50,570 nt of DNA from Candidatus Latescibacterota bacterium (GCA_022821275.1 JAJEDY010000099.1:1-50570), one strand, 5' to 3'. Shown: positions 4,123 to 15,408, counted from the first letter of the stretch. The notes: generated from the sequence alone by a model not told the origin. Program-made: numbers and translations.

Positions 4123-4914
4123 TTACAAACTCTGCGCAATCCGGAACCCCACATAAAAGCTCCCCGCAATGATATTGAGGCTCTCGCGATAGGACGAACG
4201 GAGGAACCACGAATCTATGTACCAGGCACCGCCGCGCAACACGCGCACAGAACAGATACCGCTCTCCCACGCGGATCCATCAGTGGGCGCCCCCACATAT
4301 CTGTTATTATAACAATCCTGAGTCCATTCCCACACGTTGCCGTGCATGTCGTAAAGTCCCCATCCATTGGCCTCGAACGATCCCACCGGTGCCGTCTGCT
4401 TATTATCCCACTCACTGCCACACCCATTGCAATTGGCGCGGTTGCGTCCAGCGTCATTCCCCCAGCTAAATCTCGTCACCGTTCCCGCACGCGCCGCGTA
4501 CTCCCACTCCGCCTCACTCGGCAAACGATAGCTCTTCCCCGTCTGCTCCGATAGCCACGCCGCGTAAGCCACGGCATCTTCCCAGGTAATATTGATCACG
4601 GGACGCCGCCCCCGGCCAAAACCCCTGTCGTCTGCTCGCTCGCGCCCTGTCATATCTGTGAAAAGATCGTATTCCTCAAACGTCACCTCGTACTTCGACA
4701 GCGCAAACGCCTTAACCGTCACCTCATGCGCTGGTCTCTCGTTATTACCGCAACCTCTCGCCACACAACCCATTTTAAAACGCCCCGCGGGAATCTCCAC
4801 CATCTCTGGCTGCTTAAAACCCTTAGCTCTGTTCTCCTGTGAAACCTGGGCAGTTGCAACAGTGAAAAATCCCAACAAAAATAGAACGGAAAAGCTACTC
4901 ATAAGTCCCTGCAT
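4123..4914 (-). CDS. Exported SUMF1-domain protein, not a canonical formylglycine-generating enzyme
   Basis: 263 residues. An N-terminal signal peptide (about 1-22, ending TVATAQ) is followed by one SUMF1 / FGE-sulfatase domain, recognised from EIPAGRFKMG (41-50), YEVTFEEYD, RLPSEAEWEYAARAG, GLYDMHGNVWEW and the C-terminal VGFRIAQ. In true FGE enzymes the last motif carries a catalytic Cys (GFRC); here the position is Ile, so it probably binds rather than oxidises. This is common among bacterial SUMF1-domain proteins. SD GGAGAAATATT precedes the ATG. It lies 82 bp downstream of the adaptor gene on the same strand, and no terminator is seen in between, so it may be the last gene of the sigma-54-driven operon. 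It ends at the terminator shared with tRNA-Phe. Confidence 0.85.
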   Translation of the reverse strand: MQGLMSSFSVLFLLGFFTVATAQVSQENRAKGFKQPEMVEIPAGRFKMGCVARGCGNNERPAHEVTVKAFALSKYEVTFEEYDLFTDMTGRERADDRGFGRGRRPVINITWEDAVAYAAWLSEQTGKSYRLPSEAEWEYAARAGTVTRFSWGNDAGRNRANCNGCGSEWDNKQTAPVGSFEANGWGLYDMHGNVWEWTQDCYNNRYVGAPTDGSAWESGICSVRVLRGGAWYIDSWFLRSSYRESLNIIAGSFYVGFRIAQSL

Positions 4915-4996: not shown

Positions 4997-5725
4997 TCAC
5001 CTTCCGATGGTCACATCGACCAGGGCGCCGGGTCTGACATGCTTTCCCGCATTTAAAAAAAGACCCGTTACTTTGCACGTCCCGTTTTCCGGATCGATAA
5101 TGGGACTGATCCCGACGACGCGCCCGGGCAACACGCGCTGTCTGCCAGCGGTCGGCACGGCAGACAGCGGCATATTCATTCGGATTGCGTTCAGCCTGCC
5201 CTCGGGCACAAACAGATGCACCTGAAGATCCATGGGGTCGATGACCCGCGCGACCGCAGTGTAAGCCAGAACCCAATCGCCCGGCTTTACATTGACCTCG
5301 ACCACCATCCCGTCCTGGGATGCGATGATTGCGGTCCTGTCCAGTTCCATACGCGCGGTGATCCAGTTATAGTGTGCGACCTCGGCATCGAAGCGGACAT
5401 TTTCGAGATGCTGGTCGCTGATCAGCTTCTTATCGTGCAACACTTCCAATCGCGCTTTCATGCTCTGAGCCTTCTTCAGTGCAATTCGAGCCGCGGCTTC
5501 CTTCACGCGCAAATCCCGACGGGATAATACCATGAGGGTATCCCCTTTGGCCACCCGGTCTCCCACCTCAAAGTTGACCTGCTGCATCTGCGCGTTCATC
5601 CCGGCATAGACAGTCGCCGATCGCACAGGTACTAAAGGTGCCCTCAATATCAGTTCGTGTGCATTGACCCTTATCGTAATGAGCATGAGGAACAGACCGC
5701 ATAGAAACATCGCGTTGTATATCAT
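4997..5725 (-). CDS. Short HlyD/RND-type periplasmic adaptor-like protein
   Basis: 242 residues. A hydrophobic signal (about 5-22, ending VNAHE) is followed by a biotinyl-lipoyl-like half (NFEVGDRVAKGDTLMVLS), a helical hairpin (about 68-125), the second lipoyl half (ASQDGMVVEVNVKPGDWV) and a beta-barrel-like domain to the C-terminus. This is the domain order of membrane-fusion proteins, but it is short (family members are usually 300-400 residues) because the membrane-proximal domain is missing. No RND, ABC or MFS pump and no outer-membrane channel is adjacent, which makes a classical efflux role uncertain. The start overlaps the stop of the YdjM-like gene by 4 bp (ATGA), so the two are translationally coupled. 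Confidence 0.78.
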   Translation of the reverse strand: MIYNAMFLCGLFLMLITIRVNAHELILRAPLVPVRSATVYAGMNAQMQQVNFEVGDRVAKGDTLMVLSRRDLRVKEAAARIALKKAQSMKARLEVLHDKKLISDQHLENVRFDAEVAHYNWITARMELDRTAIIASQDGMVVEVNVKPGDWVLAYTAVARVIDPMDLQVHLFVPEGRLNAIRMNMPLSAVPTAGRQRVLPGRVVGISPIIDPENGTCKVTGLFLNAGKHVRPGALVDVTIGR

Positions 5726-6915
5726 AGTTGTTCTCCTATCAAACGAATACGTAACATACCCCTGAATCGCACTTTTTTGCGTTTTAGAGCCTCAATCTCC
5801 TCCTGCTTATCCGCCAGTTCTCTCTCTACTTGTCTCAGTTTCAGGTAATGAACAGGCGGATAAGCCATTTTCAGGTCCTCCAGTTTATTATAAAGACCTC
5901 GCTCTTCCCTCGATAAATCTTTTACGCGCTCAGAGAGACCTCTTAAACTGGGCTGAAATCGCGAAATCTCCTCTTTCCGGGCAAATCTGAATTCAATCTC
6001 CCGGGTGGTGAAACTGACAGCACTGCCCTGGGGATATTCCTCCTCAACCTCAAAAGAAGCATTTGCCTCGAGCAGTCCAGATACAAAACTGTTTTCAGGG
6101 ATCCGCTCTATAAACTTCTGACAGGTCTCGCCTCTCAACTGGATCGTCTGTATTCTCACGGGCCGATCCGTCTCCTCCACGCGCACCTTATCCGGCAAAA
6201 TGGCACCGTGTTCTCCGCAAGTCAGAACCCGCCCGTTGAAAAAGATCCAGAACCAGGCGGGCCTGGCATCGAGGATCAGGGCTTTTCCACTTACCTTCTC
6301 CCGCGTGTGTCGCCATTGCCCTTCAAAATTCAAATAGGTTTCCATGTTGGCACTCCGATAATCTGAGTATGCGGCCGAGGGCGTCGCCATCAAGTATCTA
6401 AACGATCGCCAGATACCGCCCATACTCGATATGGGCATGAATATCAGGAGCAGCATAACAACCACGCCGAACACCACACCTTCTCCCCCGAGGGATCCCG
6501 TCTTGACCCTGTATCTCGCACTGTTGGGGAAAACGCAAACTGCGGGATAGGGATAAAACAGGGGTACGCCGCTTTTGGTCGTACAATCGGCGATCAAATG
6601 GCTCATATAGCCCAGGAGCACAGCCGCATAACACGCGGATTGATAGGCGAGCAAGGGCAAGGTGACAACCGATAGCGCGATCATACAGAGCAGCGAATGC
6701 GTAACTGTCCGGTGCCCCCATCGCCGCTCGATTGGGATGGAGGCAAAGGGCATTATCCGACCAATATAACTGTTTGGCGAATCAACATCCGGAAGCAGGC
6801 TCCCTATGATCGCGCATGCGACCGCGGGAATATTGCGGTGAAAGGACATGGAAAAGAGCGAAAAGGAACTCGCCACCGTGAGCAGCCCAAATGCAATATG
6901 TGTGGGTGCAGTCAT
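5722..6915 (-). CDS. YdjM/DUF457-type membrane-bound putative metal-dependent hydrolase with C-terminal coiled coil
   Basis: 397 residues. The N-terminal 175 residues carry the YdjM/YbcI (DUF457) pattern: PTHIAFGLL at the start, GSLLPDVDSPNS, the HRTVTHSL motif, a MSHLIADCTTKSGVPLFYP block, and four to five membrane segments. His and Asp residues in these motifs are the presumed metal ligands. Residues about 195-315 form a soluble domain with several Cys that I do not recognise. Residues about 320-385 are charged and heptad-like (REERGLYNKLEDLKMAYPPV region and after), consistent with a coiled coil. Family members are usually only 150-350 residues. The gene overlaps the recombinase-ATPase gene upstream and the adaptor gene downstream by 4 bp each. 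The physiological reaction is unknown for the whole family. Confidence 0.75.
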   Translation of the reverse strand: MTAPTHIAFGLLTVASSFSLFSMSFHRNIPAVACAIIGSLLPDVDSPNSYIGRIMPFASIPIERRWGHRTVTHSLLCMIALSVVTLPLLAYQSACYAAVLLGYMSHLIADCTTKSGVPLFYPYPAVCVFPNSARYRVKTGSLGGEGVVFGVVVMLLLIFMPISSMGGIWRSFRYLMATPSAAYSDYRSANMETYLNFEGQWRHTREKVSGKALILDARPAWFWIFFNGRVLTCGEHGAILPDKVRVEETDRPVRIQTIQLRGETCQKFIERIPENSFVSGLLEANASFEVEEEYPQGSAVSFTTREIEFRFARKEEISRFQPSLRGLSERVKDLSREERGLYNKLEDLKMAYPPVHYLKLRQVERELADKQEEIEALKRKKVRFRGMLRIRLIGEQL

Positions 6916-8426
6916 CGTTTGAACCTGTACATAAAGAATCGAATACCCACCAGAATCGCGCTGCCAATACCAGCCAGCACATACCCCTCCATACTCCCGA
7001 TGCCGCGCATGAAGAATCGCGCCGCAACCACGACCAGCAAAAGCAACACCACGGCAAACGTAAGATCGATCTGATCTCGCGCGCCCGTGTGAGACACATC
7101 TCGCACCGCGGATCGGGTCACAGCTGGTTCTTTGCGAAGCCGTTCCACAATCTCAATGATGGCGCGCGGATTGCCAGCACTCTGTTGTAAGATGTTCGTC
7201 TCGGTCATGCGATAGTCTTCTATATTGGCACCCGCAGCGCACTGGCGGATGAGCTTCTTGGCGTCCGCGGCAGATAGGTGCTCTACTTCTAAGCTGTCGA
7301 ACTTCCAGAAGTATTTCTCGTAGGGCCTCTTGACTTCTTGCAAAGCCGCGATAATGGTGAACTTGCGGTTGAGCTTGTCGATCAATCGCCCGACCGAGGC
7401 GGTCATATCGGATAGGTCATCGACGATCAACACGAACTCGTTTCTCTCCACTGAGCCGAGCACCATATCGGTCCAGCCCTGAATGCTCGTGCGGGTGTGT
7501 TGCTTTTTGATCGTTTCAAAGTTGTCCGGACCATCTGGACATAGCCTTCCGATTTTGTGAAGCCCTTCCGCAATATTTATCAGGGCCTCTTTCACAGGCG
7601 AAAGCGTCTTCACCTTCAGCGCGTTCTCTGCGTCGAGCAACGCGAGCAAATGGCTTTTGCCCACGCCGATTGGGCCAGTGACCAGCGTGTCAATCCCCTT
7701 GTTCAAGTTGTCTTCGAGCTGGTACAATTCCTCATCGCGTCCCACAGTCTGCGGCATCCCGGTGCGCGTGTGCTTCGGCGCGAAAAAGCTGTAATCGCGA
7801 TTCTTCCAGCGCGACCACCACCGCGCCAACCGCGACCTGCGATCAATGCGCTCAACAGAATGCCGCTTTTGCTCGTCACTCACAGAGATATAGATGGATG
7901 ACGCCTCAATAGACGAATGCCCCATCAGGTCTTTGATGCGCTCGACCGGTACATCCCGATCTGCCAGGTCCGCGCCGAAAGTGTGCCTGAGCATGTGTGG
8001 ATGAACGTGGCGGATCCCTGCGCGCTGCGCGTAAGTCTTCATGAATGCCCACACGGTCTTGCGGCTGAGTTGCTGCCCGTTGCGGAGATTGCAGAAGACG
8101 TATTCAGAATCTGAAAAACGCCGGGACGCCAGCCACTCGCGGAGGACGTCTTGCACCTCGAGGTTCATCGGAACAGCGCGCTCTTTGTCGCGCTTGTCCG
8201 CAAAGCGAAGATTCGGCGTGTCCGTTGACCAGTCAATATTGTCAACCGTGAGCGCACAAGCTTCGGATACGCGCAGACCACATTGTGAGAGCACGGCAAT
8301 CAGCGCGCGATCGCGCGGGTTCATACGTACGGATTTGAGCGCTTCAAGCTCGTCTTTCGTGAGAGCTTTTGGTGGGATTGTAGCGGATGGTACTGCTGGA
8401 CGGGTTACAAGTGATTGGTGAACCAT
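6912..8426 (-). CDS. Tyrosine recombinase catalytic domain fused to a P-loop ATPase and two C-terminal transmembrane helices
   Basis: 504 residues from the ATG at 8426, chosen because AGGAGGG lies 8 nt upstream. The longer open frame to 8792 would translate the sigma-54 promoter, palindromes and terminator. Residues 20-195 are a tyrosine-recombinase catalytic domain with a complete set of active-site residues: Arg52 (GLRVSE), Lys78/Lys81, His144 and Arg147 (HMLRH), His170 (LMGHSS) and Tyr179 (SSIYIS). The usual N-terminal core-binding domain is missing. Residues about 225-435 are an AAA/STAND-like ATPase with Walker A GPIGVGKS (251-258), Walker B VLIVDD (332-337) and a SAGNPRAI motif near 416-423. 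Residues 455-471 and 482-497 are membrane helices. It is first gene of a coupled operon behind a sigma-54 promoter. I know of no described protein with this architecture. Function (DNA rearrangement, plasmid/chromosome dimer handling, or a regulator using the recombinase fold to bind DNA) is not determinable here. Confidence 0.88.
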   Translation of the reverse strand: MVHQSLVTRPAVPSATIPPKALTKDELEALKSVRMNPRDRALIAVLSQCGLRVSEACALTVDNIDWSTDTPNLRFADKRDKERAVPMNLEVQDVLREWLASRRFSDSEYVFCNLRNGQQLSRKTVWAFMKTYAQRAGIRHVHPHMLRHTFGADLADRDVPVERIKDLMGHSSIEASSIYISVSDEQKRHSVERIDRRSRLARWWSRWKNRDYSFFAPKHTRTGMPQTVGRDEELYQLEDNLNKGIDTLVTGPIGVGKSHLLALLDAENALKVKTLSPVKEALINIAEGLHKIGRLCPDGPDNFETIKKQHTRTSIQGWTDMVLGSVERNEFVLIVDDLSDMTASVGRLIDKLNRKFTIIAALQEVKRPYEKYFWKFDSLEVEHLSAADAKKLIRQCAAGANIEDYRMTETNILQQSAGNPRAIIEIVERLRKEPAVTRSAVRDVSHTGARDQIDLTFAVVLLLLVVVAARFFMRGIGSMEGYVLAGIGSAILVGIRFFMYRFKR

Positions 8427-8487
8427 GGGAACGCCCTCCTGTATGGGGTTAGAACTGCAAATTTTTGATCTCGTGCCCTTTATACAG

Positions 8488-8504
8488 TGCAAAAACCGTG
8501 CCAA
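8488..8504 (-). promoter_or_regulatory. sigma-54 (-24/-12) promoter of the recombinase-ATPase operon
   Basis: Read on the minus strand: TTGGCACG, then GTTT, then TTGCA. The -24 GG (8502-8501) and -12 GC (8490-8489) are separated by exactly 10 nt, as the sigma-54 consensus requires, and the match to TGGCACG-N4-TTGCA is complete. The predicted transcription start is near 8477, giving a leader of about 50 nt before the ATG at 8426. Confidence 0.88.
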
Positions 8505-8580: not shown

Positions 8581-8638
8581 TGTTTCATATGACACAGTAA
8601 GTGTTTCATTTGAAACAGTAAGTGTGTCATATGAAACA
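8581..8638. promoter_or_regulatory. Three phased 16-bp palindromes, probable enhancer (UAS) for the NtrC-like regulator
   Basis: Palindromes lie at 8581-8596, 8602-8617 and 8623-8638. The middle one is TGTTTCA-TT-TGAAACA, perfect in its 7-bp arms. The outer two are exact reverse complements of each other (TGTTTCATATGACACA and its complement), each with one mismatched pair. Start-to-start distance is 21 bp both times (two helical turns), and the 5-bp spacers are both GTAAG. Centres fall at about -111, -132 and -153 relative to the predicted sigma-54 start, the usual place for enhancer sites of bacterial enhancer-binding proteins. Confidence 0.8.
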
Positions 8639-8684
8639 CTTGAGATAGGAGTGTAACAGGGGGATTATTGGAGATAAAACACAA

Positions 8685-8713
8685 AAAATGCCCTGAATAA
8701 CACAGGGCATTTT
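8685..8713. terminator. Intrinsic terminator behind the response-regulator gene (copy 1 of a dispersed repeat)
   Basis: An 11-bp perfect stem (AAAATGCCCTG / CAGGGCATTTT) with a 7-nt loop. On the minus strand it follows the response-regulator stop (8793) by about 80 nt and precedes the enhancer sites, so it separates the two transcription units. A near-identical copy lies at 15232-15260. Confidence 0.82.
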
Positions 8714-8792
8714 GAAAGGTGGATATAGCACTGGATTGTCTGCAAGTTGCGATAAAAAATAAATGAGTTAAAGGAATGAGACCCGGATCCAC

Positions 8793-10220
8793 TCAAAGCA
8801 ATCCGCACCGTTTCATTCTATACCTCAAAACCATTCTCGAGATACCCAGAATCTCGGCCGCGTGGGCTTGATTCCCACTTGTCCGCCGCAATGCCTCTTG
8901 AATCAGTGCCTTCTCGACTGCGGGCCAATTCATCTGTTCATCGGATAGGGATCGTACCACCTGTTCAACGATACTCTCCGCGGGCATGGATGATGTCTTT
9001 GCGGTCGGGGAACGCTCACCGAAATCAAATCCCAGGTCATCCGCATTGATCTCCCTATCAACGCACAAAATAGCCGCTCGTTCAACCGTATTCTTCAACA
9101 TGCGAACATTACCCGGAAATACCTGCCGCTGGAGAAATTCCTCAGCTTCTTTTGAAAACCTCATCGACGGTTTCCGCAGATCCCGGGCATAATCAGCCAA
9201 AAAGTGTCGCGCCAGAACCAGAATATCCCCCACTCGCTCGCGCAACGGCGGCACCTGTATCACGAATACATTCAACCTGTAATACAGGTCCTCTCTGAAA
9301 TTTCCTTCCTCTACGGCTACAGTAAGTGACCTGTTGGTCGCTGCGACTACGCGCACATCTACCGGGATCTCATCACTACTCCCCACCGGCCGGATGCATC
9401 GCTCTTCCAGCATTCGCAGCAGACGCACCTGCATCTCCAGCGGCATATCCCCGATCTCATCCAAAAACAGCGTACCCCCATCTGCCAGCTCAAAATGCCC
9501 CTTCTGATTTGCCTTCGCGTCCGTAAACGCACCCTCTTTGTGTCCTAAGAACGCGCTCTCAAACAAATTGCCCGGAATAGCAGAACAATTCACGGGAATA
9601 AACGGACCGTGCGCGCGATCGCTCTCGCTATGCACGGCTCGCGCAACCAGTTCCTTCCCCGTACCCGTCTCCCCAACAATCAGCACCGTCGTATGACCAG
9701 TCGCAGCCACCTGCTGGATCTGCGCCTTCATCTTCACAACCACCTCACTCTCCCCTATAATCGCATTCAAACTGTTTCTCTCTCGCTCCTGCGCCTCGAA
9801 CTGATCCAGCCAGGCTTGCACCCTATCCTTCTCTCTGCGAAGTGTCTGGTAGCGCACCGTGCGCTGAATGGCCACATTCAGATCTTCCACCTTGAAGGGT
9901 TTGCTGAAGAAATCAAACGCCCCTTCTCGTAGCGCGCGAAATGCATTCTCGGACTCTTTCACCCCGGTAATCACAATCGCCTCAATCTCAGGAGCAATAG
10001 ACCGCACCCGCCGAAGCACCTCGAATCCATCCATCTTAGGCATCTTCACATCTGTAATCACAATATCCACAGCCTGGCTCTTCACCACCTCCACCGCCTT
10101 CTCCCCATTCGCCGCCTCGATAACCGTATGCCCTCTCGCAATGAGGAACTTCCCAATCGAAGACCGAATATGTGCATCGTCATCAACCACCAGGACCGTC
10201 ATGCTGACCTGCTCATTCAT
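8793..10220 (-). CDS. NtrC-family sigma-54-dependent response regulator
   Basis: 475 residues in the standard three-domain order. The receiver domain (7-122) has the acidic pair DDD, phospho-acceptor Asp in VITDVKMPKMDG, Thr in VITGV and Lys in SKPF. The AAA+ domain (about 150-390) has Walker A GETGTGKE, the sigma-54 contact loop reading GAFTDA instead of GAFTGA, Walker B GGTLFLDEIGD, and the FREDLYYRLNVF and PPLRER blocks. A Fis-type helix-turn-helix (about 435-475, HAAEILGISRMVLRYRMKR) follows. GAFTDA is a frequent variant in this family and does not by itself argue against sigma-54 dependence. SD AGGGGG precedes the ATG. No histidine kinase is adjacent, so it is an orphan regulator. Its gene lies directly upstream of three palindromes and a sigma-54 promoter, which makes the recombinase-ATPase operon its most likely target (inference). 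Confidence 0.95.
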   Translation of the reverse strand: MNEQVSMTVLVVDDDAHIRSSIGKFLIARGHTVIEAANGEKAVEVVKSQAVDIVITDVKMPKMDGFEVLRRVRSIAPEIEAIVITGVKESENAFRALREGAFDFFSKPFKVEDLNVAIQRTVRYQTLRREKDRVQAWLDQFEAQERERNSLNAIIGESEVVVKMKAQIQQVAATGHTTVLIVGETGTGKELVARAVHSESDRAHGPFIPVNCSAIPGNLFESAFLGHKEGAFTDAKANQKGHFELADGGTLFLDEIGDMPLEMQVRLLRMLEERCIRPVGSSDEIPVDVRVVAATNRSLTVAVEEGNFREDLYYRLNVFVIQVPPLRERVGDILVLARHFLADYARDLRKPSMRFSKEAEEFLQRQVFPGNVRMLKNTVERAAILCVDREINADDLGFDFGERSPTAKTSSMPAESIVEQVVRSLSDEQMNWPAVEKALIQEALRRTSGNQAHAAEILGISRMVLRYRMKRCGLL

Positions 10221-10457: not shown

Positions 10458-10739
10458 ATGATAGAATCATTCCGAGATAGAGAGACCGAGAGGGTATTCC
10501 TCCGCGAGAGATCGCGGAAATTATCGGGCATACTGGCTCGCTCGGCCCTAAAGAAGCTCCTCCTGTTGGATGCCGCCGATTCGATACAGGACTTGCGGTC
10601 GCCACCTGGTAATCGTCTGGAGAGACTCGCAGGAAATCGAAGCGGCCAGTACAGTATCCGCATAAACGAACAATGGCGTCTTTGCTTTGAATGGAAGGCT
10701 GGACGTGCGATCAACGTGGAGATCGTCGATTACCATTAG
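10458..10739 (+). CDS. higB: HigB-like type II toxin (RelE/ParE superfamily)
   Basis: 93 residues, the normal size of HigB-type mRNA interferases. Recognisable family features are an N-terminal SFRDRETERVF segment, the LLLLDAADSIQDLRSPPGNRLE block (first half shown by LLLDAADSI) and the C-terminal strands QYSIRINEQWRLCFEW and VEIVDYH. These toxins cleave mRNA on the ribosome. The toxin gene precedes the antitoxin gene, with a 9-bp gap, as in other higBA loci. No leader is predicted upstream of its ATG, so initiation may be leaderless. Nearby TA and decayed genes mark this as an accessory region. Confidence 0.93.
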   Translation: MIESFRDRETERVFLRERSRKLSGILARSALKKLLLLDAADSIQDLRSPPGNRLERLAGNRSGQYSIRINEQWRLCFEWKAGRAINVEIVDYH

Positions 10740-10748
10740 GAGGTATCT

Positions 10749-11048
10749 ATGCCTACAATGTCCCCAATTCATCCAGGAGAAATTCTGTTCGAGGAATTTC
10801 TCGAGCCTCTGAAGATTAGTCAGTATCGTCTGGCAAAGGATATTTCAGTGCCACCTCGCCGGATTAACGAGATTGTTCACGGCAAGCGTGCTATTTCGGC
10901 AGACACTGCACTACGGTTGGCGCGCTACTTTGGAACCACAGATCAATTCTGGCTCAATTTGCAAACGCGTTACAATTTGGAATTGGAGAAAGACCGCCTC
11001 GGTGAGCGTTTGGAGGCTGAGGTGCAGGTTTTAGAGCGTCAAGTTTGA
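10749..11048 (+). CDS. higA: HigA-like antitoxin (XRE/HTH family)
   Basis: 99 residues of the HigA/VapI type: HPGEILFEEFLEPLKISQYRLA leads into a helix-turn-helix (about 20-60) with PPRRINEIVHGKRAIS as recognition region, followed by ALRLARYFGTT and FWLNLQ, all hallmark positions of the family. It neutralises the upstream toxin and is expected to bind the inverted repeat at 10431-10449. SD TAGGAGG lies 6 nt before the ATG. The gene converges with the beta-helix protein gene, leaving 11 bp between stops. Confidence 0.95.
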   Translation: MPTMSPIHPGEILFEEFLEPLKISQYRLAKDISVPPRRINEIVHGKRAISADTALRLARYFGTTDQFWLNLQTRYNLELEKDRLGERLEAEVQVLERQV

Positions 11049-15104: not shown

Positions 15105-15408
15105 ACCTCTCCTTATTCTCAGGTTTTTCTATTTTGCAATTTACTCGAAAAAACAGGGGTTTGCAATGGCATTTTGGCGTATAATGAAACAGTTTGATTA
15201 GAATAAGTGAACTATTAGGGAGATTACACAAAAAATGCCCTGAAGAACACAGGGCATTTTGGAGGAAAGAGGACGGCGAGTCGCAGGACGCGACAAACAA
15301 ACCTCCACATTTTATGAGGGCTTGTTTTTATGGAATACGCTGGTACAAAGCGAAGTGCCCGCCTACCCATATTGCCAGCGTTGAAACAGGAGATGTGAGG
15401 CAGGTGCT
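15105..15408. repeat. Gene-free stretch with copy 2 of the dispersed terminator repeat
   Basis: The stretch contains a hairpin at 15232-15260 (stem AAAATGCCCTG / CAGGGCATTTT) that can end the PIN toxin-antitoxin transcript (minus). Together with about 50 flanking bp (15181-15231), it resembles the sequence at 8622-8684, including a GTTTCAT half-site (minus strand, about 15184-15190). Unlike copy 1, no sigma-54 promoter follows it. No gene is seen in the stretch. Confidence 0.7.

Follow-up and report, generated by a model that had tools for sequence, protein, structure and literature searches.

On the minus strand of a 50,570-nucleotide stretch of DNA from Candidatus Latescibacterota bacterium (GCA_022821275.1, JAJEDY010000099.1:1-50570; here called the window, meaning the whole stretch analyzed) lies a gene for a single protein in which a tyrosine recombinase catalytic domain, an AAA+/STAND ATPase domain and a C-terminal hairpin of two membrane helices follow one another. 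The same run of genes continues with a YdjM-family membrane protein, an RND-type periplasmic adaptor and a protein with an FGE-sulfatase domain, and is preceded by a sigma-54 promoter, three palindromes and the gene of an NtrC-type response regulator (Table 1). The fusion is confirmed as one genuine chain, recurring in other assemblies and on plasmids of other phyla, and its ATPase-hairpin part is accompanied across phyla by a YdjM gene.

Table 1 Positions of the fusion gene, its domains, the neighboring genes and the control region in the window
Feature	Position	Strand	Remarks
FGE-sulfatase-domain protein	4123..4914	-	Final gene of the run in the genus
RND-type periplasmic adaptor (HlyD/MFP)	4997..5725	-	TIGR01730 above cutoff
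YdjM-family membrane metal-dependent hydrolase with C-terminal extension	5722..6915	-	ATG overlaps the fusion-gene stop; constant partner across phyla
Coding sequence, 504-residue tyrosine recombinase / AAA+ ATPase / two-helix membrane protein	6912..8426	-	Single open frame, ATG at 8426
Membrane helix 2, residues 481-499	6930..6986	-	Hydropathy peak
Membrane helix 1, residues 455-473	7008..7064	-	Hydropathy peak
AAA+/STAND ATPase domain, residues 227-450	7077..7748	-	Walker A 251-259, Walker B 332-338, GNPR sensor-2-like 418-421
Tyrosine recombinase catalytic domain, residues 21-200	7827..8366	-	R52, K78, H144, R147, H170, Y179
Variable 20-residue leader MVHQSLVTRPAVPSATIPPK of the fusion	8367..8426	-	Also precedes a CPBP-protease frame (C38 copy) and ATPase-only copies
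Shine-Dalgarno AGGAGG of the fusion gene	8435-8440		Good ribosome-binding site
Sigma-54 promoter TTGGCACGGTTTTTGCA	8488..8504	-	Perfect match
Three 16-bp palindromes (TGTTTCATATGAAACA type)	8581..8638	.	21-bp phasing, putative activator sites
Terminator-like inverted repeat	8681..8714	.	Between activator gene and operon
NtrC-type sigma-54 response regulator	8793..10220	-	Likely operon activator

A sequence-only reading of this DNA had proposed the three-part architecture, with the usual N-terminal clamp domain missing, and the domain analysis bears out both. Phage_integrase (PF00589) matched residues 21-185 with an E-value of 9.6e-40 (136.6 bits versus a gathering cutoff of 27.1), AAA_16 matched residues 228-268 slightly under its curated cutoff (E 3.8e-6), the hairpin is evident from hydropathy, and all parts lie in one open frame. 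No match to a core-binding domain was found for the fusion protein in Pfam or NCBIfam, and we judge this domain absent because the catalytic homology starts straight after the leader of about 20 residues. The recombinase residues, the two Walker motifs and the two helices had likewise been read correctly, and both Walker A (GPIGVGKSH) and Walker B (VLIVDDL) are kept in relatives. A basic-aromatic stretch directly after the recombinase (RRSRLARWWSRWKNRDYSFF, residues 196-216, about 7779-7841) is conserved and is possibly a membrane- or DNA-facing amphipathic segment. Low-complexity insertions of varying length occur between Walker A and Walker B, near residue 300, in four other copies (L037, L043, L045, L056); the window copy is without this insertion.

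Within the genus, the full fusion was found at 85-90% identity in G001, G003, G009 and G010, also in G002, and once more in the window's genome, on C38. Another Latescibacterota family of the same class has it too, in two genomes, at 47-52% identity. The titles of close contig matches mostly name Latescibacterota, and one names Gemmatimonadota. All six catalytic residues are identical across ten aligned fusions, and median dN/dS within the genus was lowest in the hairpin (0.05), followed by the ATPase (0.12), the recombinase (0.17) and the linker (0.67). Relatives are not split at residues 200-220, where a gene-joining frameshift had been suspected, and most full-length homologs keep the catalytic residues. 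An assembly or frameshift artifact is ruled out by the presence of the same fusion in independent assemblies, in the other family, and on Bacteroidota and spirochaete plasmids. Two copies in G031 (L044, L051) show deletions or frame disruptions within the recombinase, for which misassembly is possible because that assembly holds several similar copies. The other family has three or four copies per genome (L043, L044, L045 and L046, in G031 and G039), which sit on short contigs and are followed by IstB/DnaC-like ATPase genes, suggesting mobile elements.

Beyond these genomes, the three-part fusion is encoded on five plasmids of Bacteroidota, labeled simply as an integrase or a recombinase, and on one of Thiospirochaeta, where the gene crosses the start of the record. 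The architecture is thus not novel in the sense of unique, as had been supposed, since it stands in public plasmids under the sole label 'site-specific integrase'. Between Latescibacterota and four of the Bacteroidota plasmid fusions, at 24-29% identity, R52, H144, R147, H170 and Y179 are invariant; the catalytic lysine is present but column-shifted in one plasmid fusion. Plasmid records with an ATPase match were typed non-mobilizable in 12 of 12, 46 of 48 and 38 of 38 cases, which are raw counts over overlapping sets, without a collection baseline. Among the 386 genomes around the window, the ATPase-hairpin profile had matches in 13, all in the window's own phylum; neither phages nor viral contigs had any, and scanning the viral contigs with the whole fusion gave recombinase-domain matches only. 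One compact carrier, the Flavobacterium plasmid NZ_MN657160 (L197; 14.4 kb), has annotated genes that are mostly Rep, ParA, a TolC-like open reading frame, the fusion, YdjM and small unknowns.

Within the genus, a paralogous operon carries the ATPase-hairpin without the recombinase (e.g. G000 C30, G001 C24, G007 C1:948876), the same short form occurs in G019, G004 and the C40 locus of G005, and G007 retains a decayed remnant of the fusion. Recombinase presence needs five to six changes on the ATPase tree, and the Latescibacterota recombinase domains form one group separate from host Xer proteins (88/80 support). In a tree that includes the plasmid recombinases the branches are long, and a single origin of all fusions is neither shown nor rejected (approximately unbiased test, p 0.11). 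The simplest history would be an early fusion followed by several losses of the recombinase.

For the recombinase part, the NCBIfam models of XerA, XerD and XerC rank top and are the closest, but the matches are far under the equivalog cutoffs, the core-binding domain is missing and the domain clusters apart from host Xer. The short models of FimB/FimE-type tyrosine DNA invertases (NF007370, NF007371) also match the catalytic domain; these invertases, however, are unfused and act on promoters, whereas the fusion loci show no evidence of inversion. For the ATPase, fold claims are drawn from a model of the ATPase-hairpin only (mean pLDDT 80), since the whole-protein model was poor (pLDDT 61.5). 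Its top Foldseek matches were RFC, NB-ARC, MuB and RuvB, with NB-ARC proteins giving the highest TM-scores, and a GR box, Walker A and B motifs and a GxPR sensor 2 are present. By its modeled fold, the ATPase is an AAA+/STAND protein. It shares fold and motifs with NB-ARC, MuB/TniB, RuvB and RFC, but the family adds the conserved C-terminal two-helix membrane hairpin and has no close family in Pfam or NCBIfam. An FtsK/HerA-like motor had no match in the window protein, and the suggestion that the recombinase carries its own FtsK was not upheld. Taken as a whole, the sequence-only reading was partly supported: it was right about the domains but not upheld on FtsK, uniqueness and, as described below, the palindromes. 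It had missed the main point, namely that YdjM is a conserved partner and that the setting is one of plasmids.

The pairing of ATPase and YdjM extends far beyond the window. In 46 plasmid records from cyanobacteria, Thermus, Gammaproteobacteria, Bacteroidota and Thermococcus, the two genes lie on the same strand with the ATPase upstream and a gap of at most 1.8 kb, a tally that counts only records with both matches listed and is not a rate. Two further pairs come from Desulfocapsa and a Fusobacteriota plasmid, and in Spirosoma and Flammeovirga YdjM precedes the ATPase gene. A 'metal-dependent hydrolase' of the YdjM family adjoins the Bacteroidota fusion genes, as in the window, while a recombinase-less ATPase-hairpin stands beside YdjM on plasmids of cyanobacteria, Thermus, Gammaproteobacteria, Desulfocapsa, the Fusobacteriota strain and Thermococcus barophilus. 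In YdjM, residues H6, D43, D45, H68, R69, H73 and D110 are invariant in 15 of 15 aligned sequences, the archaeon included, and are putatively of active-site type; a profile search found no solved relative. We conclude that the steady core is a predicted membrane-anchored AAA+/STAND ATPase together with a predicted YdjM membrane enzyme, to which the DNA module forms a variable front end. The recombinase is, by its residues, an optional and catalytically conserved DNA module, fused in three phyla (Latescibacterota, Bacteroidota and the spirochaete).

Further envelope components accompany the pair in some lineages. The RND-type adaptor continues the Latescibacterota operons; two Thermus plasmids have a TolC-family gene between ATPase and YdjM (PF02321, E 3.6e-13 and 1.6e-9), and in that genus a coiled-coil extension at the C-terminus of YdjM gives a weak lipoyl-type match. 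In Flavobacterium the gene preceding the fusion gives a sub-threshold outer-membrane-efflux (OEP) match (E 5.4e-4), and in five cyanobacterial plasmids a HerA/TrwB coupling-protein-like ATPase directly follows YdjM. With their MFP, TolC-family and TrwB/HerA-like genes, the operons of these lineages recall RND/HlyD-TolC tripartite pumps and type IV coupling proteins; they differ in that the surroundings of the pair show neither an RND/ABC permease nor VirB-type channel genes, YdjM being found at the inner-membrane place. As a type IV secretion or conjugation system, marked by a VirB4-type ATPase, channel genes and a known relaxase, the loci do not qualify: the host plasmids are mostly typed non-mobilizable, and the TrwB/HerA-like ATPase of cyanobacteria is the only related gene. 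Desulfocapsa encodes a separate tyrosine recombinase with its own core-binding domain match, and in some cyanobacteria small helix-turn-helix-like proteins, seen by inspection, precede the ATPase.

The tyrosine-recombinase-like relaxases MobK (pIGRK), TcpM (pCW3) and MpsA (SGI1) also lack a core-binding domain (PMC8152469), TcpM being the prototype of MOBM (PMC12857230). The fusion resembles these relaxases, which are associated with plasmids or integrative mobilizable elements and consist of a catalytic tyrosine recombinase without core- or arm-binding domain; the likeness is one of domain make-up, not of sequence comparison with TcpM, MobK or MpsA. None of them is described with a fused ATPase or membrane helices, and TcpM tolerates mutation of other recombinase residues whereas the fusion retains the full catalytic set. 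The Bacteroidota and Thiospirochaeta fusions are plasmid-borne; the window copy is chromosomal.

Because the variable front end is a DNA module, and because tyrosine-recombinase-like relaxases are also without a core-binding domain, we favor, tentatively and with slightly less than even confidence, an explanation in which the fusion handles DNA as one subunit of an apparently undescribed apparatus that is bound to the envelope and associated with plasmids, and whose most likely purpose is DNA transfer. The hairpin would hold the ATPase to the inner membrane. The recombinase part would recognize a site on the element's DNA and then nick or covalently hold it, by analogy with the relaxases; the ATPase, a nucleotide-gated switch in this picture, would load the DNA or pass it on; and YdjM, the adaptor and, where present, the TolC-like protein would provide the path across the envelope. 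The outcome would be DNA export in a conjugation-like transfer.

Several observations weigh against this explanation. Nothing in the sequences indicates that the apparatus moves DNA rather than another substrate. The recombinase is missing from many copies (cyanobacteria, Thermus, Gammaproteobacteria and operon B of the genus) and was repeatedly lost; the core function must therefore be able to do without it. The chromosomal location in the window is matched in the complete genome G007, which has its copies on a single 6.5-Mb contig, and the locus adjoins a conserved tRNA-Phe. The HerA/TrwB gene was seen in cyanobacteria only, and of the Latescibacterota loci examined none showed a TolC-like gene. 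The TolC/MFP assignments in cyanobacteria and Gammaproteobacteria are weak similarities from sequence features; with small alignments, hhalign comparisons for TolC- or MFP-likeness (cyanobacteria, Gammaproteobacteria, Bacteroidota) were negative or uninformative, and PDB profile searches were likewise weak. A tyrosine-recombinase island integrated at the tRNA-Phe was considered and rejected: the tRNA 3' end faces the operon, yet synteny is conserved genus-wide, att repeats not having been specifically searched for.

Each domain is of a known kind, the assembly being new in composition and its function one that we infer. A survey of the open-access literature, with subscription journals and preprints outside its scope, found neither the fusion nor the ATPase-YdjM pair described. 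That the plasmids typed non-mobilizable carry an undescribed DNA-transfer system, distributed among several bacterial phyla and Thermococcus, with a tyrosine-recombinase-type relaxase fused to a membrane-anchored AAA+/STAND ATPase and a YdjM-adaptor-TolC-like path in place of type IV channel proteins, is a doubtful proposition at present. If the pair does serve a transfer or maintenance machine, plasmids would have a new way of spreading or persisting, and there would be an explanation for two widespread genes annotated only as 'ATP-binding protein' and 'metal-dependent hydrolase'; most plasmids carrying it are typed immobile, yet related copies occur in distant phyla and in an archaeon. The fusion offers a biochemical handle, one chain with a tyrosine that can be assayed for DNA cleavage, and as the pair is carried by Synechocystis pSYSX and by S. 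elongatus and Thermus plasmids, genetics is feasible now in model cyanobacteria and Thermus.

Plasmid maintenance is a less likely but live explanation, the best placed of the alternatives. Here the protein would act, tethered to the membrane, as a multimer resolvase or a partition factor: its recombinase would resolve dimers or bind a centromere-like site, and the plasmid would be kept at the envelope by the ATPase-hairpin and YdjM. Genes for ParA or ParAB are found nearby in Flavobacterium, Thermus, Nostoc and Gloeocapsa, the host plasmid can be as small as 14.4 kb, the full Xer-type catalytic set is kept and the host plasmids are typed non-mobilizable, all of which would suit such a role. 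However, it leaves the periplasmic adaptor and TolC-family genes of the same operons unexplained, most copies are without the recombinase, and the copies in the window's genus are chromosomal and look inducible.

Export of a substrate other than DNA, likewise a live alternative, is less probable again. The ATPase, YdjM, the adaptor and the TolC-like protein would then be a plasmid-borne efflux or secretion accessory trait, and the recombinase a DNA-binding regulator. The RND-type adaptor and TolC-family genes fit this proposal, as does the optional recombinase, and control by sigma-54 and an activator is typical of responsive envelope operons. Yet neither a permease nor a recognizable substrate gene was seen, the ATPase is of AAA+/STAND rather than ABC type, and the cyanobacteria have the HerA/TrwB-like gene. 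Moreover, conservation of the nucleophilic tyrosine and the pentad in full-length copies would be unexpected in a pure regulator, and the conserved nucleophile also weakens the earlier suggestion that the recombinase fold has become a DNA-binding sensor for the ATPase.

A role in defense or abortive infection, with the STAND-like ATPase and its membrane helices sensing invasion and YdjM as the effector, seems very improbable. The resemblance of the ATPase to STAND/NB-ARC proteins and its patchy distribution would agree with it, but PADLOC gave only a weak mads_8 match on the fusion (E 0.0017), the ATPase is absent from the viral sequences searched, and the adaptor/TolC partners and plasmid setting fit poorly.

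The operon appears to be under inducible control. The NtrC-type regulator gene is next to the operon both here and in several relatives, and the sigma-54 promoter and palindromes were found at every genus operon examined, with or without a recombinase; they were not detected at the other-family fusion copies. In a genome-wide palindrome search allowing at most two mismatches, eight of nine sites lay at the three operons, while a reversed-pattern control gave one. Since they are phased over the sigma-54 promoter and common to operons without a recombinase, the palindromes are best read as activator sites, and their earlier identification as recombinase sites does not hold. A self-acting inversion or phase-variation switch at these palindromes, for which their number upstream of the fusion gene and the FimB/FimE-type matches might speak, is largely refuted by this arrangement and by the lack of inversions among the aligned genus loci.

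Repeat-mediated rearrangements were noted at the terminator-like block (8655-8714, 15202-15261), with no tie to the recombinase. A second block of this kind lies at 15183-15266 of the window, beside half a palindrome and upstream of a decarboxylase gene; the block otherwise occurs only at the three operon promoters, and in G005 the sequence found after the second block lies directly against the operon promoter. This looks like a rearrangement scar. Between sigma-54 promoter and fusion, two loci have an open reading frame for a CPBP (CAAX-like) intramembrane protease (L037 3592-4248, G000 C38; L056 1320-1706, G002), which begins with the fusion's leader peptide MVHQSL... and is truncated in G002; a leader of the MVHQSLVTRPAVPSATIPPK type precedes the protease frame in the C38 copy, and it also precedes ATPase-only copies. 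Finally, by inspection, a HigBA-type toxin-antitoxin pair (RelE-like and XRE-like open reading frames, 10458-11048) adjoins the activator gene in the window.

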